Assembly: GCA_001429255.1 (NCBI GenBank)
Contig: LMJI01000001.1
Location: 372,001-436,000, forward strand
Direction of reading: 5' to 3'
Source: Cellulomonas sp. Root930
GTDB taxonomy: Bacteria > Actinomycetota > Actinomycetes > Actinomycetales > Cellulomonadaceae
DNA: 64,000 nt
A program made the position numbers and the translations under genes. The notes under the pieces were generated by a model that was not told where the DNA came from, did no database searches, and saw only the letters and a program-made list of their open reading frames with translations. Below, in pieces: positions 48,541-58,275 of this stretch; positions within the stretch are counted from its first letter, which is position 1, and the number at the start of each line of letters is the position of its first letter.

Positions 48541-51500
48541 TCAGCGCATCGCCCGGGTGATCGCGCTGCGCACCGCGGTGTCGATCCGGTACGACCGCCG
48601 CGTGATGCCCAGCTCGTCCCGGAGGGCCGCAGCCAGCTGCTCGCGGGTCCGCTCCTTCTCGTCCGACTGCAGCCACGTCACCAGCTCGTCCAGCTGGTCG
48701 TCGCTGTAGGCACCGATCGGCAGACCGCGTCGCACGTCGGGCCGCTGCAGCGTGGGCACCGCGAGGGCGAGCTGGAGGGCGCGGCTCGGCGGCTCGTCGG
48801 CGGCGTCGGTTCCGCTGTCAGAAGGCGCAGCGGGCTCGGCAGGCTCGGCGGGCTCAGCGGGCGACGCGTCGGCGGCCTCGATGACCTCGACCGTCGACCA
48901 CACCCCGGTCGCAGGGCGGGGCTCGTCCGGGTGGGCCGATGCCCGCGCCGCCGCCCGAGCAGCCGAGGACTCGGGCGTCGGCAGCTCCTCGGTCTCGTCG
49001 GCCTCGTCGAGCAGGCCCAGCTGCAGCGGGGCGCTGCGGGGCGCCGCCGGTGCAGGGACGCGCGCATGCACGGCCCGGCGGATCCGGTCGACCTCGGCCT
49101 GCGGGTCCATGAACGCGGCCGCGGACCAGACGCGGATGACGCTCCAGCCCACCCGCTCGAGGCGGTCGGCGGTGAGCCGGTCGCGGACCCGGACGCTGCG
49201 CTCGGCGGTGTACTCGGCGTCGTCGGTGAGGACGGCGACGAGCATCTCGCCCGGCAGGTCGGGGTGGCCGACGACCAGCGGGATCCGGTCGCCCCCGGGG
49301 ATGCCGTGGTCGGCCTCGACCAGCAGGCCGTGCTTCCAGAGGCGCTCGGCGAGGTCGAGGAGCAGGCGGTCGGGCTCGGTCGCCGCGGCGAGGGCCTCGT
49401 CCGCGGCGGCTGTCGCAGCCGCCAGGGTCCGCAGCAGCGGGTCGGTGGGCTCGGGCGGCGTGACCAGGTCGGACACGTCCTGACCGGCACCGCGGCGGGC
49501 GGCGAACGCGAGCAGGTCGGCCAGCAGCCGCGGACCCGGACCGCGCAGGCGCTCGGGGTCGAGGTCGTCGGCGCCGAAGCAGGCGACCACGGTCAGCCGG
49601 TGCCGCGTGGACCCCAGCGCGTCGAGCAGCAGGGCGTCGCCCCCGGGCGCGGAGATCGGCCCGAACGTGTGCAGCACGCGGCGGTGCGGGGTCCGGCCCA
49701 GACCGAGCGACAGGATGATCGCCTCGCGGCGCAGCCCGGCGACGTTGGGCAGGTCGGTGACCACGAACGGGTCGACGCGGCCGGAGTCGAAGAAGGCGGC
49801 GAGCGCCGGGTTGCCACGGACCTCGGACAGGACCGCCTCGCGCACGGCCTCGGCGTGGGTGGAGGTGGCGGTGATGACCGCGAGCGACTCGTCGGGGCGC
49901 AGCAGCGCGTGCGTGAGCACCAGCTCGACGACGTGCTCCACCTCCTCGCGCGTCGAGTCCACCGATCCCGTGTCGCGGTCGGGCATGCCCGTGCCGTCCA
50001 CGAGGTCGAGGCCGACCAGCGGCCGGTACTGCGGGAGGGGCGTCGCGCGGAGCACGCCGGCGTAGCCGTGGGCGGCGAGGAACGCGGTGAGGTAGGGGTC
50101 GCGGCGGGACGAGTCGGCGCGCAGCGCCACCGAGGGCAGCACGTCGGCCAGCTCGCGGACCGCGGAGCCGGAGGCGCACCGGGCGTCGCCGACGACGACC
50201 ACCTGCCGCCCGCGCGCGACCGCGGCGAGCGCGACCTCGACGGGCAGGTGCGCGGCGGAGTCGATGACCACCAGGTCGACCGTGCGCGTCGGCGGCAGCA
50301 ACTGCGGGACCAGCATGGGGCTGGCCGCGATGACCGGCCGCAGCCGCCTCGCCACCTCGGGGTGCCGCACCACCGTGTCGCGCAGCGACGTGAGCCGCTC
50401 CTCGACCAGGTCCGCGAAGAGCGCCTCGGCCTGCTCACGGTGCTGGCGCAGCGCGTGCGAGACGTGGCCGACGACCGCGCCGAGCACCGGTCCGGACAGG
50501 CTCTTCACGTGCGCGCGGTCGAGCGTCGCGTACTGCGCGGACATCGCGCCCAGCGCGGTGCCGTCGTACCCGGCCAGCGCGGGGTCCTCGGAGAGGATCT
50601 GCTCGATGACGGTGCTCCACCAGGCCAGGTCGAGCTCGGCCGGGGCGAGCGCGGGGTCGATGCGGCGGGTCGCCAGGTCGTCGACGAGCGCGCCGAGGCC
50701 GGCCGAGCGCAGGCGGTGCAGGAGACCGGTCCGGTCGGGCAGGTCGGACAGCGCGTCGGTGTCGGAGCGCAGCCGCGTGAGGCGCTCGGTCAGCGCCGCG
50801 AACGGCAGGCTGGACAGGCCGGCCCCGCCGGGGGTCGTCGCGAGCACCTCGTCGAGCGCGTCGAGGTCGGCGCGCACGGCGGCGAACTCCTCCTCGATGT
50901 GCTCGAGGCCGTCGGGCAGCCGCGGCCACCCGCCGGACGGGCAGTGCGCCTGCCAGATCTCCCGCTGCGCCTGCACCTCGAGCAGCCCCGCGTGCAGGTC
51001 GGCCACCGGGCGCCCGGGACGGACCATGTCCTTCGACTGCTTGCGCAGCCGGCGACGGAGCCAGTAGCCCATCTCCATCCCGCGCTCGGCCCGCCACTCC
51101 TTGGTGGCCGTGGCGGCGACGAGGTCGGCGGCGGTGCGCTCGAACACGATCGGCTGGAACACGTCGAGCGCCGCGCGGACGCCGTCGAGCATGGTCAGCT
51201 GCTCGGCCCACGCCACGACGGTGGTCGCCTGGGTCAGACCGGTCTCCGCGGCCACCTGCGCGGTGCGCTCGACCAGGGCCGGGAGGGTGGAGTCGAGCAC
51301 GCGGGCCAGCCGGCGGACCACGTTGTCGGCGTCGGCACGCGTGCGCAGGTCGGCGCCGTACCAGGGGGTGTCCGTGGGCCGCAGGCGGAAGGCGCCCAGC
51401 TCACCCGCGCGCACCAGGTCGGTCGTCAGGTCGGCACGGCGCTCCGCGTCGAGCACCCGGGCCACGTCCGGCGACAGGCGCACGGTCGTCTTGGGGGTCG

Positions 51501-52926
51501 GCCGCGTGGAGGTCAGGCGGGCGAGCTGCTGCAGCGCGTCGTACGCCGAGACACCCCACGGGGCGCGCTCGGCGTGCAGCGCGTCCACGTACGCCCGGAG
51601 GCGTTCCCGTGTGGCGACCAGCTCGCTGCGCAGCGCGACGACGCCGTTCGCGTCGACCGCGGGTGCCTCGAGAGTCATCGCGCCGAGCAGGCGTCGCGCG
51701 ATCGCGGACCGCCAGCCGGCGTCGGGGGCGACGTCGAGCAGCAGGTCGCCCAGGCCCAGCGCGCCCAGCCGGTCCGCGAGCGCGGTGGCCGCGCGGCGGT
51801 GCCCGGGCACGTACAGGACGGTGCGACCGGTCGCGGCGGCATCGGCGACGAGGGCCGCCAGGGTGCCGGTGACGTCGGCACCGGCGGGGGCGTCGACGAA
51901 CAGGTGCGTGCCGGTGGCCACCACGTCGAGCACGTGCTGCTGCGCGGGATCGAGGTCGCCGACGCCGCGCTCGTGCCCGGGGTCCCGGTCGCCCCGGACC
52001 GGGACGGGCAGCACCCGACGCAGCCGCGCCCGGGACTCCTCGACGCCCGCGAGCGCGGAGACGACCTCGTGGCGCTCGAGCGTGCCGGACAGGCTGTCCA
52101 GGTCGTCGACCAGGATCTGCCCGGGGTGGACGAAGGTGCCGACGACGACGCGCTCGCTCAGGGAGAAGTCGTCGAGCACGGCCTCCCCCAGCGACGTGAG
52201 CCGCTGGAGCGCGCCGCGCGGGTCGAACCCGTTCGACGTGAAGGTGCCGCGCGCGACGGCACCCGGGTCGAGCAGTGCACCGCGGGCGCGCAGGGCCCGC
52301 GCGAGCACGGGGTTCACCTCGAGCGACGGCTCGAGCGCGAGCTCGTAGTCGCTCTCGCCCGAGCCGCGGGCGCGCAGGGTGACGGGGCGCAGGAGGACGG
52401 GAGCGCGGACGGTGCGCGGAGCCGCGGCGTCGTGCTGCTCGCCCTCCCCCGACCGCTGACGCGTCACCGAGGCGAGCGCGGCGACGTCGTCGCTGGCGAT
52501 GTCCGGGGTGGTGCGCTCGGTCCAGGTGGCGACGCCGATGGCCAGGGACGTGGGCGCGATCCCGTACCGCTGCGCGTACACGGCGGCGCGGGCGCTCACC
52601 GCCCGGGCGCGACGGCGGGCGGTCGAGAGGGCCGACCCCTCGCGGATCAGGTTGGACAGGCGCGTCTCGCGGCCGGCGAACAGCTGCGAGATGCCGGACG
52701 GGTGCGCGGCCGACAGGTCGAGCGCGGCGTCGCCGAGCAGCTCGACGTCGACGAGCGTCGACCCCCCTGCGGCCTCGACGAGCGAGGCGCGCCAGGTGGC
52801 GACGGCTCCTTCGAGGAGCTCGGCAGGCGTGGGGGGCTCGACGAGCACCGGGCGGTCGGCTGGGTCTGCGCCGGTCTCAGGAGCCTGGTCGGGTCCCGGG
52901 CCGGAGGCGCGCACGGGGACGGTCAC
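48541..52926 (-). CDS. Large SF1-helicase-like protein with REase-like domain, degenerate ATPase motifs
   Basis: This 1461-residue protein has the layout of the DUF4011/SF1-helicase/Vsr-type endonuclease family. Its DUF4011-like N-terminus leads to a helicase core at about residues 330-1180, but the Walker A site reads DAPAGADVTGT from Asp345, without the GKT/S lysine. The Walker B equivalent is VVIDSAAH (Asp889) where DEAS/DEAQ is expected, and motif III is VVGDARC. A nuclease-like fold follows (about residues 1190-1290) with LTDDAEYTAERSVRVRDRL and GWSVIRVWS, like DUF559/Vsr. The C-terminal 80 residues look like a small DNA-binding domain. It may bind DNA without hydrolysing ATP. Confidence 0.8.
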   Translation of the reverse strand: MTVPVRASGPGPDQAPETGADPADRPVLVEPPTPAELLEGAVATWRASLVEAAGGSTLVDVELLGDAALDLSAAHPSGISQLFAGRETRLSNLIREGSALSTARRRARAVSARAAVYAQRYGIAPTSLAIGVATWTERTTPDIASDDVAALASVTRQRSGEGEQHDAAAPRTVRAPVLLRPVTLRARGSGESDYELALEPSLEVNPVLARALRARGALLDPGAVARGTFTSNGFDPRGALQRLTSLGEAVLDDFSLSERVVVGTFVHPGQILVDDLDSLSGTLERHEVVSALAGVEESRARLRRVLPVPVRGDRDPGHERGVGDLDPAQQHVLDVVATGTHLFVDAPAGADVTGTLAALVADAAATGRTVLYVPGHRRAATALADRLGALGLGDLLLDVAPDAGWRSAIARRLLGAMTLEAPAVDANGVVALRSELVATRERLRAYVDALHAERAPWGVSAYDALQQLARLTSTRPTPKTTVRLSPDVARVLDAERRADLTTDLVRAGELGAFRLRPTDTPWYGADLRTRADADNVVRRLARVLDSTLPALVERTAQVAAETGLTQATTVVAWAEQLTMLDGVRAALDVFQPIVFERTAADLVAATATKEWRAERGMEMGYWLRRRLRKQSKDMVRPGRPVADLHAGLLEVQAQREIWQAHCPSGGWPRLPDGLEHIEEEFAAVRADLDALDEVLATTPGGAGLSSLPFAALTERLTRLRSDTDALSDLPDRTGLLHRLRSAGLGALVDDLATRRIDPALAPAELDLAWWSTVIEQILSEDPALAGYDGTALGAMSAQYATLDRAHVKSLSGPVLGAVVGHVSHALRQHREQAEALFADLVEERLTSLRDTVVRHPEVARRLRPVIAASPMLVPQLLPPTRTVDLVVIDSAAHLPVEVALAAVARGRQVVVVGDARCASGSAVRELADVLPSVALRADSSRRDPYLTAFLAAHGYAGVLRATPLPQYRPLVGLDLVDGTGMPDRDTGSVDSTREEVEHVVELVLTHALLRPDESLAVITATSTHAEAVREAVLSEVRGNPALAAFFDSGRVDPFVVTDLPNVAGLRREAIILSLGLGRTPHRRVLHTFGPISAPGGDALLLDALGSTRHRLTVVACFGADDLDPERLRGPGPRLLADLLAFAARRGAGQDVSDLVTPPEPTDPLLRTLAAATAAADEALAAATEPDRLLLDLAERLWKHGLLVEADHGIPGGDRIPLVVGHPDLPGEMLVAVLTDDAEYTAERSVRVRDRLTADRLERVGWSVIRVWSAAAFMDPQAEVDRIRRAVHARVPAPAAPRSAPLQLGLLDEADETEELPTPESSAARAAARASAHPDEPRPATGVWSTVEVIEAADASPAEPAEPAEPAAPSDSGTDAADEPPSRALQLALAVPTLQRPDVRRGLPIGAYSDDQLDELVTWLQSDEKERTREQLAAALRDELGITRRSYRIDTAVRSAITRAMR

Positions 52927-52997
52927 GCTGGAACGCTAACCGCGCTGCCGCGTGATCTCGGGCATGGCGCGCCGTAGGGGGCCGACCCGGACACACA

Positions 52998-53033
52998 GAG
53001 AGCGGGACGGGTCAGGGGACCCGTCCCGCTCTC
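52998..53033. terminator. Perfect 16-bp hairpin downstream of the peptide genes
   Basis: GAGAGCGGGACGGGTC and GACCCGTCCCGCTCTC pair completely around an AGGG loop. It isolates the peptide operon from the helicase-like gene. There is no T run. Confidence 0.8.
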
Positions 53034-53043
53034 CGGACGCGAA

Positions 53044-53084
53044 GACGGTGCGCACCGCGCAGGGGGCAGGCGATGCGCACCGTC
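53044..53084. repeat. 11-bp inverted repeat
   Basis: GACGGTGCGCA and TGCGCACCGTC flank a 19-base spacer. It could be a second hairpin or a two-site operator for the helicase-like gene about 120 bases further on. Confidence 0.55.
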
Positions 53085-53285
53085 AAGACGAGTGTGCGGC
53101 ACGAATACGGTGCTGGTCAAACGTCCAGGCCGCCCATGCGGGTGAATCCCGCGGGTGGAATCGCCAACCTGGGAAGACCCTGAGATGCACCCCGGAGAGC
53201 GCCGGATGGCGCGCACCGGTCCGTGTGCCGCGTGCGGGCGTCACCGCACCGTGGTCGAGGCGTCGGAGGGCTCAGGTCCCGCTGG

Positions 53286-53420
53286 TCACGAGCCACCCTT
53301 GCAGCACGGCTGAGCGAGCACGGAGGTGCCGGCCGCGGGTGGGGTGAGGGCTGCTCCCGTGACACCCGTGAGGGCGGTGACGGCGAGGACGAGGGTCAGG
53401 GCGATGCTGCGCTTCTTCAT
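53286..53420 (-). CDS. Small secreted propeptide 2 (44 residues, ends in AQPCCKG-GS)
   Basis: The ATG at 53420 follows GGAAAGG at good spacing. The product has a basic start (MKKRSIAL), a hydrophobic stretch to about residue 25, a small-residue linker, and VLA-QPCCKGGS at the end. V at -3 and A at -1 allow cleavage before Gln37, which would release an octapeptide. The 21 bases encoding AQPCCKG are identical to those of the neighbouring peptide gene. It has no recognised family. It is the second of two tandem copies downstream of an XRE-TPR regulator. Alternatives: a metal-binding or antimicrobial peptide. Confidence 0.75.
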   Translation of the reverse strand: MKKRSIALTLVLAVTALTGVTGAALTPPAAGTSVLAQPCCKGGS

Positions 53421-53451
53421 GAGAGACCTTTCCGAGTACGTGTCATTCCTC

Positions 53452-53489
53452 ACGCGTCGCCGCCTCCGGGGGCAGCTGCGGCGACGCGT
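53452..53489. terminator. 12-bp hairpin between the two peptide genes
   Basis: ACGCGTCGCCGC and GCGGCGACGCGT pair perfectly around a 14-base loop, 13 bases after the peptide-1 stop. It may terminate or process the transcript so that the first peptide is made in greater amount. Confidence 0.65.
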
Positions 53490-53502
53490 CCTGACGGTGG
53501 TC

Positions 53503-53625
53503 TCAGAACGTGCCCTTGCAGCACGGCTGAGCGGTGACGGGGGCGTCGGCGGACGAGCCCGTGGCTCCTGCAACACCGGCGAAAGCGGCGAGGGCGATGG
53601 CCAGGGCGATGCTGAGCTTCTTCAT
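53503..53625 (-). CDS. Small secreted propeptide 1 (40 residues, ends in AQPCCKG-TF)
   Basis: The ATG at 53625 follows GGGAAGG. The product has MKKLSIAL, a hydrophobic core to about residue 20, a polar linker and VTA-QPCCKGTF at the end; the -3/-1 residues V and A would allow release of an octapeptide with N-terminal Gln. It is a close paralogue of the peptide at 53286-53420: both start MKK-SIAL and share AQPCCKG, with free variation between. The gene follows the XRE-TPR regulator in the same direction, with 119 bases between them holding a palindrome. This order matches signal-peptide genes of RRNPP systems. No export or uptake gene is nearby. Confidence 0.78.
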   Translation of the reverse strand: MKKLSIALAIALAAFAGVAGATGSSADAPVTAQPCCKGTF

Positions 53626-53645
53626 GAGGGTGCCTTCCCGAGGAC

Positions 53646-53664
53646 GTACGGGGCTGTCCCGTAC
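53646..53664 (-). promoter_or_regulatory. Candidate operator upstream of the peptide genes
   Basis: GTACGGG-N5-CCCGTAC is a 7-bp inverted repeat, 20 bases before the peptide-1 ATG. It is the obvious candidate for binding by the XRE-TPR regulator. It may also act as an mRNA leader hairpin. Confidence 0.55.
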
Positions 53665-53744
53665 ACCTGGAATGGTCCCTAGCCCGTGTCTGGACCGCAA
53701 TGACGCAGGACAACGGGGGGGTAGACATCGGCTCGAGGCCGGTT

Positions 53745-55055
53745 TCAGACCCGCCTGGGCGGCGGGAGGACTCCGCGGATGCCGGCCGCCGCGAGCGCCC
53801 GGCCGTACGCCTCCACCACGCGCTCGTCCTCGTCGCCGGCCACGCGGAGGCGATCGCCGATGCGGCGCCAGAGCACCGCGGCGGACCGTCCCGACGAGAT
53901 CATGTCCAGCAGCTCGGCGGCGGAGCGGTACTGCTTGACGGCCTCGGTGCGGGCGCTCTGCGCGAGCATGGCGTCGCCCAGGGCCTCGTGCGCGGACGCG
54001 GCGTCGCGGCGCACTCCCTCGCGGAGCAGGTCGACCGACTGCTTCGCGTACTGCTGGGCCCGCGCCGGGTCCTCCAGCAGCAACCAGGCGCGGGACCGGA
54101 CCGAGTCGGCGCGGGCCAGCTCGATCTGCGACTCGCCGACCTCGAGCGCGGTCTGCGCGGCGTCGAGGTCGGCGAGCGCCTCGGCCGGCCGCGGGGGGTC
54201 GACCGAGACGAGCAGCAGCGCCCGGTCCAGCCGGAGGCGCGGCAGGTCTCGGTCGATCTCGTCGGACCCCGCGAGCGCGATCGCCGCCTCGAGCTGCTCC
54301 AGGGCGGCGTCGGGCTCCCCCAGGGCGTCGTCGACGAACGCCAGGTTCCAGTGCACCGACGACACCGCGCGCGCCGAGCCGTGCCGCCGCGTGTGCGCGA
54401 GCAGCTGCCGGCCGCGGTAGCGCGCGTACGTGGTGTCCCCGCGGGCGATGTAGGCCCAGATGATCGTCGACTCCAGGCGCACCACCTCGTCGCTGCCGGC
54501 CACCGACTCGGGCAGCTGCGCCAGCAGGGCCTCCCCGCGTGCGACGGCCCGGTGCAGGTCCGCGAACTCGGTCAGCGCCATGACGATCCGCATCGCCGCG
54601 TAGGCGGCCTGGGTGTACCGGCGCGCCTCCATCAGCTGCGCACAGACGCCCTCCAGCGCCTCGACCGACGCCTCCAGGTCTCCCGCCAGGTCGAGGGCCT
54701 CCGCGTGCGCGAGCCCGACACGAGCGGCGGTGTCCACGTCGAGACCGGACAGCTGCACCTGCGCGAGCACGTCGGCGGCCTGGGCTGCCTCGCCCATCCG
54801 GGACAACCGGCGTGCCTCGATGAGCGCCCCCTCGGCGGAGCGGTACTCGGGCGCCTCCTCACCGTCGAGGAGGAACGCCACGGACACGCCCAACACGTCG
54901 GCCACGCGGGCCAGGGCGTCCTCGCCGAGGGTGCGGCGGTCGCGCTCGACGTGGGAGATGTAGGTGGGGTGCACTCCGGCCCGACGCGCGAGCTCGCCCT
55001 GGCTCAGCCCGGCCTTCTGCCGCGCGTCGCGCACACGTCTGCTCAGCGGATTCAC
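53745..55055 (-). CDS. XRE helix-turn-helix regulator with TPR domain (RRNPP-like)
   Basis: This 436-residue protein begins at the GTG at 55055. The first 65 residues are an XRE domain (LSQGELARRAGVHPTYISHVERDRRTLGEDALARVADVLGVSVAFLLDG). The rest, about residues 75-420, is a series of paired helices of tetratricopeptide type (such as AALEQLEAAIALA and AYAAMRIVMAL). HTH-TPR proteins of this length are the receptors of RRNPP peptide signalling, where the TPR solenoid binds a re-imported oligopeptide. The two genes downstream encode small exported peptides with a common C-terminus. In Actinobacteria such regulators also act in stress or development without known peptide, so the pairing is the key evidence. 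Confidence 0.88.
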   Translation of the reverse strand: MNPLSRRVRDARQKAGLSQGELARRAGVHPTYISHVERDRRTLGEDALARVADVLGVSVAFLLDGEEAPEYRSAEGALIEARRLSRMGEAAQAADVLAQVQLSGLDVDTAARVGLAHAEALDLAGDLEASVEALEGVCAQLMEARRYTQAAYAAMRIVMALTEFADLHRAVARGEALLAQLPESVAGSDEVVRLESTIIWAYIARGDTTYARYRGRQLLAHTRRHGSARAVSSVHWNLAFVDDALGEPDAALEQLEAAIALAGSDEIDRDLPRLRLDRALLLVSVDPPRPAEALADLDAAQTALEVGESQIELARADSVRSRAWLLLEDPARAQQYAKQSVDLLREGVRRDAASAHEALGDAMLAQSARTEAVKQYRSAAELLDMISSGRSAAVLWRRIGDRLRVAGDEDERVVEAYGRALAAAGIRGVLPPPRRV

Positions 55056-55087
55056 GTACTCACGATAGGGACCGTCGCCGCGACCGG

Positions 55088-56065
55088 CTACATCGTGACG
55101 ACCACCTTCGCCCGTGCGTGGTCGCTCTCGAGGTACCGCAGGGCGTCCGCCGCGGCGGGCAGCGGGTACGTCCGGTCGACTGCCGGGGTGATCGTCCCGG
55201 CCTCCGCCAGCTCGCGCAGGGCGTCGAGGTGCTCGGCGCCCGGCCGCGTGGACAGGGAGACGATCCGCTGCCGCCGCGCGAACGCTGCCGCCAGCCGGCT
55301 CCGCACCAGCAGGACGATCGGGCCGAGCAGCGAGCCACCCTCGTACACCCCCCCGCCGGACAGGACCAGGGTCCCGTCGGGCGTCAGCGCGCGGCGCAGG
55401 TCGCGCAGGGAGCGGTTGCCGACGAGGTCGAGCACGACGTCGTACCGGCGGTCGCCCCGGAACGCGTCGTCGCGCGTGTAGTCGACCACGTGATCGGCGC
55501 CGAGCGACCGGGCGAGGTCGACGTTGCGGGTGCTGCAGACCGCCGTCACCTCGGCGCCCCACGCGTGGGCCAGCTGCACCGCGAACGTCCCGACGCCCCC
55601 GGACGCACCGTTGATCAGCACGCGTCGGCCGGGCTGGACCAGCCCGTGCAGACCCTGCAGGGCGGTCGTCCCCGCGAGGGGCACGGCCGCGGCCTGCTCG
55701 AACGTGAGGTTCCGCGGCTTGCGCGCCACGAGCCGCTCGGGAGCGCTCACGTACTCCGCGAGCGCTCCGTCCGACTCCCCGTAGACCTCGTCGCCGACCT
55801 GCAGGCCGGTGACGTCCCGGCCGACCGCCTCGACGGTGCCGGCGAAGTCGGAGCCCCGGATCGGCTCCTTCGGTCCTCGTCGGCCGAACTCCGGAGACAG
55901 CCGCGCGATGTACGGGTCGCCCCGCATGAGGTGCCAGTCACGGGCGTTCAGCGACGCCGCGCGCACCCGCACCAGCACCTCGTCGGCCGCGGGTACCGGT
56001 TGCTCGACGTCGTCGAGCGTGAGCACGTCCGGGGAGCCGTAGCGGCTCTGCACGATCGCCTTCAT
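55088..56065 (-). CDS. MDR-superfamily NAD(P)-dependent quinone oxidoreductase-like
   Basis: This 325-residue protein belongs to the zinc-independent quinone-oxidoreductase branch: GSDFAGTVEAVGRDVTGLQVGDEVYG and the nucleotide-binding INGASGGVGTFAVQLA. The zinc-binding cysteines of true alcohol dehydrogenases are lacking. Two TetR-type operators lie between its start and the adjacent TetR gene, so it is probably induced by an electrophile or drug. It ends 32 bases before the XRE-TPR gene. Confidence 0.93.
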   Translation of the reverse strand: MKAIVQSRYGSPDVLTLDDVEQPVPAADEVLVRVRAASLNARDWHLMRGDPYIARLSPEFGRRGPKEPIRGSDFAGTVEAVGRDVTGLQVGDEVYGESDGALAEYVSAPERLVARKPRNLTFEQAAAVPLAGTTALQGLHGLVQPGRRVLINGASGGVGTFAVQLAHAWGAEVTAVCSTRNVDLARSLGADHVVDYTRDDAFRGDRRYDVVLDLVGNRSLRDLRRALTPDGTLVLSGGGVYEGGSLLGPIVLLVRSRLAAAFARRQRIVSLSTRPGAEHLDALRELAEAGTITPAVDRTYPLPAAADALRYLESDHARAKVVVTM

Positions 56066-56074
56066 GACAGTCCT

Positions 56075-56111
56075 CCTTACGCCGTAAGGGAAGACTGTCT
56101 TACAACGTAAG
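56075..56111 (-). promoter_or_regulatory. Two TetR-type operators
   Basis: CCTTAC-GCC-GTAAGG (56075-56089) and CTTAC-AAC-GTAAG (56099-56111) are near-identical inverted repeats with centres 23 bp apart, between the TetR stop and the oxidoreductase start. Centre spacing of about two helical turns suggests two dimers on the same face of DNA. Confidence 0.75.
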
Positions 56112-56116
56112 GTTGG

Positions 56117-56797
56117 TCAAGACCCCGCGCGCCGCTCCAGACCGTCGAGCAGCAGATCCAGCCCGAACTCGAACTCCGTGCGGTCGTCGCACCAGCCGAT
56201 GGTCGAGTCGGGGTCGTCGTGCGCGACCTCCGCCAGCATCGCGGTGAGGAACGGGAGGTCGGCGGCGAGGTCGGCCGGCACGGGTGCCGTCGACTCGCCG
56301 GGGTCGGGGTCGAACAGCTCCTGGGAGAAGCCCAGCGCCCGGCTGCCCAGGGCGTGCAGCGCGTGGTGGATGAGGTCGTACGACAGCCCGCCCTCGTGCA
56401 GGAGGCCGACGAGCCGGTCGTGGTAGCGCACCACGTTCGGGCTCACCGCCGAGCGCGTCTCCAGCACGCGCGGGGCCCAACGGTGCCGGAGCAGCACCCG
56501 GCGGGCGGTGAGGATCCGGGCGCGCACGGCGGCCTTCCAGTCGTCGCCGCGATCCAGGCCGTCGACGGCCTCGTTGATCTCGGCGACCACCAGGTCCACC
56601 GCGCCGTCCAGCAGGTCCGCCTTGTTGGCGACGTGGTGGTACAGCGACATCGCCTCGGCGCCCAGCTCGTCGCCCACCCGGCGCATGGTGACCGCGTCGA
56701 TCCCGTGCTCGTCGGCGATCGCGACCGCCGTCCGCAGCACGCGCTCGCGGCTGAGCGGGAGGCGCTGCTCAGGCACCTGGACCGGGTCGGCCGTCAC
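56117..56797 (-). CDS. TetR-family regulator with TetR_C tetracycline-repressor-type domain
   Basis: This 226-residue protein starts at the GTG at 56797. The helix-turn-helix reads LRTAVAIADEHGIDAVTMRRVGDELGAEAMSLYHHVANKADLLDG, which is the TetR/ActR subfamily. The C-terminal ligand domain is of the classical tetracycline-repressor type. It most likely binds the two operators 56075-56111 and represses the oxidoreductase downstream. Confidence 0.93.
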   Translation of the reverse strand: MTADPVQVPEQRLPLSRERVLRTAVAIADEHGIDAVTMRRVGDELGAEAMSLYHHVANKADLLDGAVDLVVAEINEAVDGLDRGDDWKAAVRARILTARRVLLRHRWAPRVLETRSAVSPNVVRYHDRLVGLLHEGGLSYDLIHHALHALGSRALGFSQELFDPDPGESTAPVPADLAADLPFLTAMLAEVAHDDPDSTIGWCDDRTEFEFGLDLLLDGLERRAGS

Positions 56798-56844
56798 GCG
56801 ACATCACCTCTCTCCTCAGCGGATCGTACGAGGTGAGCGTCGGG

Positions 56845-58275
56845 TCAGTGCGACCGGACCCGGCTCCGGACGCGTGCCGGCACGCCGCGGCGGCGCACCC
56901 GGGTGATCCGCCGCGGCGCCGCGGCCCCCCGCACCACCGTCCCGTCGGCCGCGGCGAGCCGTCGCTGCGCGGCCGCGTAGGCGGGCACCAGCAGGACGAC
57001 CGCCCCGATCCACGCCAGCGGGTTGCCCCAGACCACGCCGCTGTACCCGTAGGCCGCCCCGAGCACGCCCGCGGCGCCGACGCGGCAGACCAGCTCGATC
57101 ACGCCGGTCATGGTGGGGACGGCCGTCTGGCCGAGGCCCTGGAGGGCTCCGCGCAGCACGAACAGCACGCCGAGGACCACGTAGAGCACCCCGTTGACCA
57201 GCAGGTAGTGCGCGGCCATGTCGACGACCCGCTCCTCCCCCGCGCCCACGAAGACGCCGATGATCGCGGACCCGCCGGCCACGAGCACCACACCCAGGAC
57301 AGCCGAGCCGACGACCGAGATCCACATGCCCTGCACGACGCCCTCCCGGATGCGGTCCAGCCGGCCGGCGCCCAGGTTCTGCGCGACGAACATCGACACC
57401 GCCAGGCCGAGCGACGCCAGCAGCGCGACCGCGAGCCCGTCCACCCGCGCGGCCGTGGTGTACGCGGCGACCGCGTCGGAGCCCAGCGCGTTCAGGCGCA
57501 CCTGCACGGCGAGCGTGCCGATCGCGATGATCGACGCCTGGAAGCCCATGGGCAGGCCGAGCCGCAGGTGCTTGCGCAGCTCGGCGCCACTGACCCGCCA
57601 GTCGGCGCGGTGCACGTGCAGGACGGGCACGCGGCGCCGCACGAACTCGAGGCAGAGGGCCACCGAGACGCCCTGCGAGAGGACCGTCGACCACGCCGCA
57701 CCGGCCACGCCCATCCCCAGACCGGCCACCGCGCCGACCACCAGGACGATGTTCAGGACGCAGCTGAGCGTGAGGAAGATCAGGGGCGTGCGCGAGTCAC
57801 CGATCGCCCGGATGACCGCCGACAGGAAGTTGAAGAACATCATCGTGCTGGCGCCGAGGAAGCTGATGACCGCGAAGGTCGTCGCCTCCGGGAGCAGCTC
57901 CTCGGGCGTGTGCATCAGCCGCAGCGCCGGGCCCGCGAGCAGGGGCGCCGCCACGGTGAGCACCACGCTGGTCGCCGCCGACAGGACCGCCCCGGCCGCG
58001 ACCGACCGGCGCACCGCGGCGTGGTCCCCGGCGCCGAACGCGTGCGCGGTCGGGATCGCGAAGCCGTTCGTCATGCCCCACGCGAAGCCGAGCAGGAGGA
58101 ACAGCAGCGCGCCCGTGGCGCCCACGGCGGCCAGGGAGTCGACGCCGAGCACGCGGCCGACGACGACGGCGTCGGCCGCTTGGTAGAGCTGCTGGACGAC
58201 GTTGCCGACGAGCAGGGGGACGGCGAACAGGAGGATGACGCGCCAGGGACGACCGGCGGTGAGGACCTTGGGCAC
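56845..58275 (-). CDS. MATE-family multidrug/sodium efflux transporter
   Basis: This 476-residue protein has twelve membrane segments in two bundles. The N-terminus has AVPLLVGNVVQQLYQAADAVVVGRVLG, typical of MATE exporters, and LGLPMGFQASI starts the second bundle. It would pump cationic drugs in exchange for sodium or protons. An 18-bp palindrome lies 74 bases upstream; the nearest regulator (TetR, 47 bases after it) recognises a different box. Confidence 0.93.
   Translation of the reverse strand: MPKVLTAGRPWRVILLFAVPLLVGNVVQQLYQAADAVVVGRVLGVDSLAAVGATGALLFLLLGFAWGMTNGFAIPTAHAFGAGDHAAVRRSVAAGAVLSAATSVVLTVAAPLLAGPALRLMHTPEELLPEATTFAVISFLGASTMMFFNFLSAVIRAIGDSRTPLIFLTLSCVLNIVLVVGAVAGLGMGVAGAAWSTVLSQGVSVALCLEFVRRRVPVLHVHRADWRVSGAELRKHLRLGLPMGFQASIIAIGTLAVQVRLNALGSDAVAAYTTAARVDGLAVALLASLGLAVSMFVAQNLGAGRLDRIREGVVQGMWISVVGSAVLGVVLVAGGSAIIGVFVGAGEERVVDMAAHYLLVNGVLYVVLGVLFVLRGALQGLGQTAVPTMTGVIELVCRVGAAGVLGAAYGYSGVVWGNPLAWIGAVVLLVPAYAAAQRRLAAADGTVVRGAAAPRRITRVRRRGVPARVRSRVRSH

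Follow-up and report, generated by a model that had tools for sequence, protein, structure and literature searches.

The 64,000-nucleotide stretch of Cellulomonas sp. Root930 analysed here (the window; contig LMJI01000001.1, positions 372,001 to 436,000) carries a gene for an XRE-type regulator that combines a helix-turn-helix (HTH) domain with a tetratricopeptide repeat (TPR)-like region, and two small genes for exported-looking peptides lie directly behind it on the same strand. The locus probably works like an RRNPP system, as an Actinomycetota signalling module with a vicinal-cysteine signal. It is one member of a wider actinobacterial family whose peptide ends differ between receptor clades. 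The claim concerns the way the module would work and does not extend to descent from the RRNPPA receptor family.

In the proposed mechanism the two small genes would encode propeptides that are exported by the Sec pathway and processed extracellularly into a short C-terminal peptide with a Pro-Cys-Cys-Lys core. An oligopeptide permease (Opp) would re-import this peptide, which would then bind the regulator in its TPR superhelix. From a palindrome located where the peptide transcript begins, the bound regulator would control the peptide genes, probably as a repressor that is relieved by the peptide (positive feedback). Export, maturation, import, binding, the sign of regulation and any further targets are steps that we infer.

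Peptide genes beside the regulator in Cellulomonas

Both window peptides begin with MKK, continue through a hydrophobic stretch and a short linker, and end in a QPCCKG tail. The first-pass annotation of this DNA gave the correct coordinates and sequences for the regulator and both peptides. The stop codon of the regulator lies 119 bp from the ATG of the first peptide, and the receptor and propeptide genes are direct neighbours. As set out in the accessible part of PMC10075063, the RRNPP signature consists of five criteria: a propeptide of 10-100 aa, Sec secretion by SignalP, a receptor of ~250-500 aa, TPRs detected by hidden Markov models, and neighbouring genes. The 436-aa receptor and the 40- and 44-aa propeptides of the window fall inside the two length ranges.

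We filtered the window for open reading frames (ORFs) of 25-90 aa with an ATG or GTG start, a hydrophobic stretch after a basic start and CC among the final 12 residues. In the 64-kb window only two ORFs passed, which are the two peptides; a single ORF passed in the reversed window, as in 200 kb of reversed locus sequence. Since the reversed controls also give one match, the window taken by itself is weak evidence. It is the relatives that strengthen the pairing: the same filter applied to 7.3-kb loci (L004-L016) returned the regulator-linked peptides and nothing else. The window regulator has 13 orthologues, found in one scan of close relatives, all of them from Cellulomonas and 57-92% identical over nearly the whole length. 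In 13/13 an exported-looking ORF of 39-48 codons lies directly downstream and ends in PCCK plus two or three residues.

In an alignment of 20 peptides from the window and these relatives the C-terminal invariant residues are P-C-C-K; CC was part of the selection of the peptides, P and K were not. The first-pass annotation had proposed the octapeptides QPCCKGTF and QPCCKGGS as the released signals. We rejected the QPCCKG octapeptide as the conserved unit, since neither its Gln nor its Gly is conserved and the alignment keeps only PCCK. The 21 identical bases for AQPCCKG, from which the first-pass annotation concluded that selection or recent duplication keeps the C-terminus, are particular to the window strain. 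Among 35 ORFs of this arrangement (type A, peptide gene downstream of the regulator on the same strand) the proline codon is CCG in 22 and CCC in 13. Type A peptide pairs differ by 3-6 synonymous and 3-10 non-synonymous codons, and the peptides are too short for an estimate of the ratio of non-synonymous to synonymous rates (dN/dS).

Two tandem peptides occur in 6 of 14 loci (the window, L004, L005, L006, L008 and L009), and eight relatives have one. In the five two-gene relatives the tail of peptide 1 is PCCKHII, PCCKHVI or PCCKQAI and that of peptide 2 is PCCKTGT or PCCKSGT; the peptide 2 gene is thus common to several species. Two genomes even carry four peptide genes. Two slightly different signals from one locus, which the first-pass annotation considered unusual, are therefore no peculiarity of the window strain. 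In these two (L132 in G115, L133 in G102) four tandem PCCK genes lie 3' of one regulator, with the tails SAGQ, QAIR and SAIR.

Small exported-looking peptides with cysteines beside a dedicated regulator, in tandem arrays of up to four genes, could also be secreted antimicrobials, products resembling ribosomally synthesised and post-translationally modified peptides (RiPPs) or membrane-active toxins, with the XRE-TPR protein merely their repressor. We consider this improbable, as no modification or immunity gene was recognised among the window neighbours and none of eight peptides tested matched an NCBIfam or Pfam peptide family above cut-off. Regulator and peptide also tend to be absent together: eight of the ten genus genomes with no regulator match have no type A peptide either.

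Regulator fold and the peptide promoter

The window regulator has an N-terminal Pfam HTH_3 domain (1.5e-14). Its AlphaFold2 model, built from 14 sequences, shows this HTH followed by a predicted helical-repeat superhelix (mean predicted local distance difference test score, pLDDT, 89.1; predicted template modelling score, pTM, 0.76), and its structural matches are TPR proteins. Among them are NprR (Z 20.2), RapH (Z 20.6) and the PlcR-PapR7-DNA complex (Foldseek E 9.1e-6); the fold is thus compatible, but long TPR proteins in general reach such values. Three homologues (L146, L167 and L176) pass Pfam TPR cut-offs. The profile of the regulator family matches PlcR over residues 7-188, covering HTH and TPR (E 2e-6), a match that is only suggestive of kinship. 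For the import step, the 4.24-Mb genome encodes five Opp-type binding proteins (SBP_bac_5); these are possible importers and indicate capacity only.

At type A loci a conserved CATTGC...GGGACCAT stretch, which may be read as a -35/-10 pair, precedes peptide 1 and is followed by a palindrome centred 27-34 bp ahead of the start codon. A strict consensus scan for promoters and terminators called none. We counted complementary positions in the 23 of 35 type A ORFs with CATTGC at most 120 bp upstream, taking the best of 38 centres. At least seven of nine positions are complementary in 21 of the 23 promoters; one has six and one five, compared with four to six for the best palindrome in equally long upstream control stretches. 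The clear failure is L128 (5/9), whose start codon is probably misassigned. The palindrome that the first-pass annotation noticed in front of the first peptide is thus a conserved site of the peptide promoter. Since it lies at the inferred transcript start, repression of the peptide genes by the bound regulator would be the simplest reading. Several promoters of type B loci, where the peptide gene lies upstream on the same strand, carry another palindrome, TGACNNNNNGTCA, at a similar place (seen by eye, uncounted).

Among 18 distinct palindromes, positions ±4, ±5 and ±6 each show a paired change in a single sequence and ±7 does so in several, while the outer positions pair less often (±8 in only 10/18, ±10 in 6/18). 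The window palindrome has a compensated change at ±5, and L005, L007 and L009 carry half of it. Such covariation would fit a DNA operator and an RNA hairpin alike. The 12-bp hairpin reported between the two peptide genes folds as described, and similar inverted repeats, seen by eye, follow peptide 1 in other loci. It is conceivable that the small ORFs are untranslated and that what has been conserved is a regulatory RNA or leader, as the palindrome and hairpins around the ORFs are conserved and the type A codon counts show no strong purifying selection. We regard this as very improbable: PCCK is kept while other codons change, and a shared RNA would not account for a Cys-Cys peptide architecture that reappears in upstream, downstream, divergent and convergent positions relative to the regulator.

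Relatives across the Actinomycetota

The wider family came to light through a paralogue: the window genome itself encodes a second regulator, 38% identical, preceded by an ORF ending in SGCCRITLN. We searched the genus, class and phylum with a profile of 18 regulators and the order with the window protein. A locus was counted if an ORF no more than 500 bp from the regulator had 25-90 codons, began with basic residues, contained a hydrophobic stretch and carried Cys-Cys among its final 14 residues. The reversed-sequence control preserves composition, not codon structure. Seven match rows were left out: L040 and L041, which belong to the same array as L037 and have no Cys-Cys ORF by filter, and five second copies (G1039:C16, G941:C43, G934:C416, G875:C26 and G1095:C6). 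In the genus (60 genomes; 71 loci cover all 73 match rows) a Cys-Cys exported-looking ORF was found at 70 of 71 regulator loci, against 0/71 in the control. The order search gave 12/13 (control 0), with two of the 13 loci from the same family as Cellulomonas; as three of the 13 are genus genomes already counted, the figure for other genera is 9/10. The class gave 53/89 (control 2) and the phylum 2/22 (control 0). The RRNPP-like layout proposed from the window alone is thus a conserved feature of the genus that reappears in the class. The absence of peptide genes beside orthologous regulators, which had been named as evidence to the contrary, is confined in the genus to one locus, L134, where relaxed looks gave no exported-looking ORF. 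At L038 the Cys-Cys lies mid-ORF.

The position of the peptide gene varies. Type A accounts for 21 genus loci and type B for 49, and in the class 41 of 53 are divergent and 11 convergent. The ends of the neighbouring peptides vary by receptor clade, with PCCK, GCC[RK], xCC-COOH, WPxCC and WP; in the class-level family f107 the peptide terminates at Cys-Cys (...SPGDFCC, ...WPGMCC). From such loci we collected 141 peptides, in which Cys-Cys was required and is constant by construction. A-x-A follows the start of the hydrophobic region in 126 of them (a count made with no control), and 128 have no further Cys.

The peptide could instead be a self-monitoring probe rather than a cell-density signal, its Cys pair being oxidised or metal-bound in the envelope, so that the returning form or an unexported precursor reports redox, metal or Sec status to the TPR regulator. 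This would agree with a Cys pair that is present at 70/71 genus and 53/89 class loci while flanking residues vary, with the 128 of 141 peptides that have no other Cys (in a collection that required the pair), and with a homeostatic loop in which the only site found is the peptide promoter. We nevertheless judge it unlikely. Tandem peptides with different tails at one locus fit signalling specificity better, and Cys-less Trp-Pro ends are found at comparable gene positions in related clades, so not every system of this kind needs Cys chemistry.

These Trp-Pro ends appear at six class loci of family f105 (L172, L184, L187, L190, L192 and L195), which have a small divergent ORF with a Trp/Pro end such as ...GWGWPG, ...PWQWPI or ...WNGPW. 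At the phylum level 13 of 22 loci have a tiny exported-looking ORF with a Trp-Pro or Pro-Trp end (FPWPK, NWPHH, WPKH, PWPHCC and others), counted by eye with no control. Some peptides bear both signatures (WPGMCC, NWPKCC, PWPHCC and PWPPCC), which suggests a single signal with Cys-Cys and Trp-Pro variants of its end. In a tree built by a quick method, with 103 of 192 regulators kept at 80% identity and Trp-Pro labels set by hand, the five f105 Trp-Pro receptors kept, including L186, form one branch beside Cys-Cys receptors in an 11-row clade (Shimodaira-Hasegawa-like approximate likelihood ratio test, SH-aLRT, 96). The tree holds 26 changes of arrangement or motif class, a count made with no shuffle test. 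From these comparisons we claim that peptide ends differ between receptor clades, and no more than this. A bolder and rather doubtful extension would be intracellular-receptor signalling throughout the phylum with a vicinal Cys-Cys code, ancestrally perhaps Trp-Pro-x-Cys-Cys, that is oxidised or metal-bound outside and reduced inside and so senses density together with envelope redox or metal, several lineages having switched between Cys-Cys and Trp-Pro.

Several observations weigh against an RRNPP-like working of the locus. On the protein side, every Pfam TPR model listed for the window regulator stays under its cut-off, and the best structural match of its model is the eukaryotic LGN/Pins (Z 25.9), so the TPR likeness is generic. 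The PlcR score of the family profile (30.3 bits) is lower than that of several HTH-only proteins, and designed TPR proteins also score higher. Among the genomes, G057 and G826 retain a PCCK peptide with no regulator match, and the conserved promoter is missing there. No regulon is visible: the type A palindrome has no second copy in the genome at 0-1 mismatch, and matches at up to two mismatches (12 forward, 13 reverse) are about as frequent as in the control (10 and 13). Five Streptomyces plasmid homologues have no Cys-Cys ORF. Finally, 36 of the 89 class loci lack a Cys-Cys ORF by filter. Besides the six f105 loci with Trp/Pro ends, these are 13 f105 second copies (178-230 bits), five weak homologues (124-143 bits) and 12 stronger homologues (213-410 bits) with nothing by filter; among the last, L200 has a longer frame with ...PHWCCG at a distance of 568 bp, and the small ORF of L186 looks exported but does not carry the motif. 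Because of these 12 our confidence in the RRNPP-like reading was lowered slightly, and we still hold it to be probable.

The orphan PCCK genes of G057 (L018/L135) and G826 (L238) have similar upstream sequences with no conserved palindrome. They may be decayed systems, a moved gene or, in G826, the effect of a contig end; as the G826 ORF lies less than 700 bp from the contig start, the absent regulator neighbour there could be an assembly gap. Other arrangements were also seen. Two loci (L104 in G071, L110 in G809) have a tandem regulator pair with a single Cys-Cys peptide gene in between. A tandem regulator array lies on one contig of G194 (L037, L040 and L041), where a single Cys-Cys peptide was seen. 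L148, L150, L153 and L155 have two Cys-Cys peptides per regulator, one divergent of the ...SPGDFCC type and one convergent of the ...PDGGSDFCC type on the other side. In L130 (G811) a type B regulator is broken across frames (1501-2481 and 2472-2774) and the Cys-Cys peptide gene is open.

Outside chromosomes, the window protein had no match among plasmids. A search with the homologue L146 gave 16 plasmid records; among six examined, that of Nonomuraea gerenzanensis has a divergent ...DAGCC ORF, and the other five are the Streptomyces plasmids mentioned above. Phages gave one weak match over 17% of the regulator, in the HTH part, and viral contigs four matches to the HTH part only.

Known peptide systems and other features of the window

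Similar to the RRNPP/RRNPPA systems of Bacillota (PlcR-PapR, NprR-NprX, Rgg-SHP, ComR-ComS, Rap-Phr, PrgX and the phage pair AimR-AimP), the module pairs a putative cytosolic receptor of HTH-TPR type, within the range of 250-500 aa, with a neighbouring gene for a small candidate Sec-type propeptide whose C-terminal end is the proposed signal, and the predicted fold of the window regulator resembles NprR, Rap and PlcR. It differs from them in its host phylum, in a proposed Cys-Cys core (PCCK, GCCR, xCC-COOH) or Trp-Pro end, and in having several gene arrangements. Rap3T-Phr3T and Rap105-Phr105 are described, in the available part of PMC11343458, as having multiplied pheromones within one propeptide. 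They share with the module more than one related signal per receptor; here, however, each signal would have a gene of its own: the window has two such genes, G102 and G115 have four, and in L148, L150, L153 and L155 one flanks the receptor on either side. NsdA-family TPR-like regulators (NCBIfam NF053720) likewise combine an HTH with TPR-like repeats and show weak profile similarity (2.9e-8 for L146), but the four regulators tested fall below the curated cut-off and the window protein has E 0.29.

The accessible text of PMC10075063 describes an RRNPP_detector survey that covered Firmicutes and viruses, and presents the quorum-sensing signals of Actinomycetota as typically small molecules made by enzymes. 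A 2026 review (PMC13220807), in its available portion, places RRNPP-type mechanisms in Bacillus and 'other Firmicutes' and gamma-butyrolactones in Streptomyces. A term search of the accessible text of the mBio 2022 and NSMB 2025 RRNPPA papers found no match for actinobacterial terms. Among the titles and abstract openings of the matches listed in the full-text literature, to which subscription papers and preprints do not belong, there was no actinobacterial RRNPP-type system. If the reading is true, a recurring receptor-propeptide module would give this class of Actinomycetota an RRNPP-like peptide language, with a two-adjacent-cysteine signal chemistry unlike that of the pheromones ADLPFEF, RRGHTAS and ERPVGT. 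The question is directly testable, as the peptides are short enough for synthesis, the locus offers a candidate operator, and the receptors, with ~430 residues, are predicted to be soluble.

Table 1. Features of the regulator-peptide locus (coordinates in the window)
Feature	Coordinates	Strand	Remark
XRE (HTH_3) and TPR-like regulator, 436 aa, GTG start	53745-55055	-	Proposed cytosolic peptide receptor and DNA-binding protein
Propeptide 1, exported-looking, 40 aa, MKKLSIALAIALAAFAGVAGATGSSADAPVTAQPCCKGTF, tail ...TAQPCCKGTF	53503-53625	-	Counterpart in 13/13 relatives
Propeptide 2, exported-looking, 44 aa, MKKRSIALTLVLAVTALTGVTGAALTPPAAGTSVLAQPCCKGGS, tail ...LAQPCCKGGS	53286-53420	-	Tandem; also in 5/13 relatives
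Palindrome GTACGGGACAGCCCCGTAC, GTACGGG-ACAGC-CCCGTAC	53664-53646	-	Proposed regulator operator, start of peptide transcript
Inferred promoter, -35 TTGCGG (53700-53695), 17 bp, -10 GACCAT (53677-53672)	53672-53700	-	Conserved CATTGC...GGGACCAT
12-bp hairpin ACGCGTCGCCGC...GCGGCGACGCGT, between both peptide genes	53452-53489	-	78-nt fold, z -2.8
Conserved structured non-coding stretch, two hairpins	52986-53096	-	Second hairpin is the terminator of the first-pass annotation; probably outside the unit

The window neighbours of the unit are genes for an alcohol dehydrogenase, a TetR regulator, a MatE transporter and a protein with an MTES_1575 REase domain. The first three recur in the 3-kb flanks of 5, 4 and 2 of the 13 relatives, respectively. 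The fourth (48541-52926, minus strand, 1461 aa) adjoins the unit and is 92-97% identical in 7/13 relatives and 71-75% in two more.

A strong hairpin at about 53035-52996 had been taken as a 16-bp terminator closing the peptide unit. We rejected this assignment: the hairpin is part of a conserved non-coding block that is found close to the next gene at a variable distance from the peptides, so the hairpin probably does not close the unit. The block (52930-53149, minus strand, near gene 48541-52926) has matches of 82-96% identity in 9/13 Cellulomonas loci; in two of the nine the match is limited to a core of 86-90 bp. Rfam gave no match at E 0.1 over 50000-58000. The block holds one near-invariant stem-loop and a terminator hairpin with both-side pair changes (6/35 pairs overall), and is a candidate small RNA.

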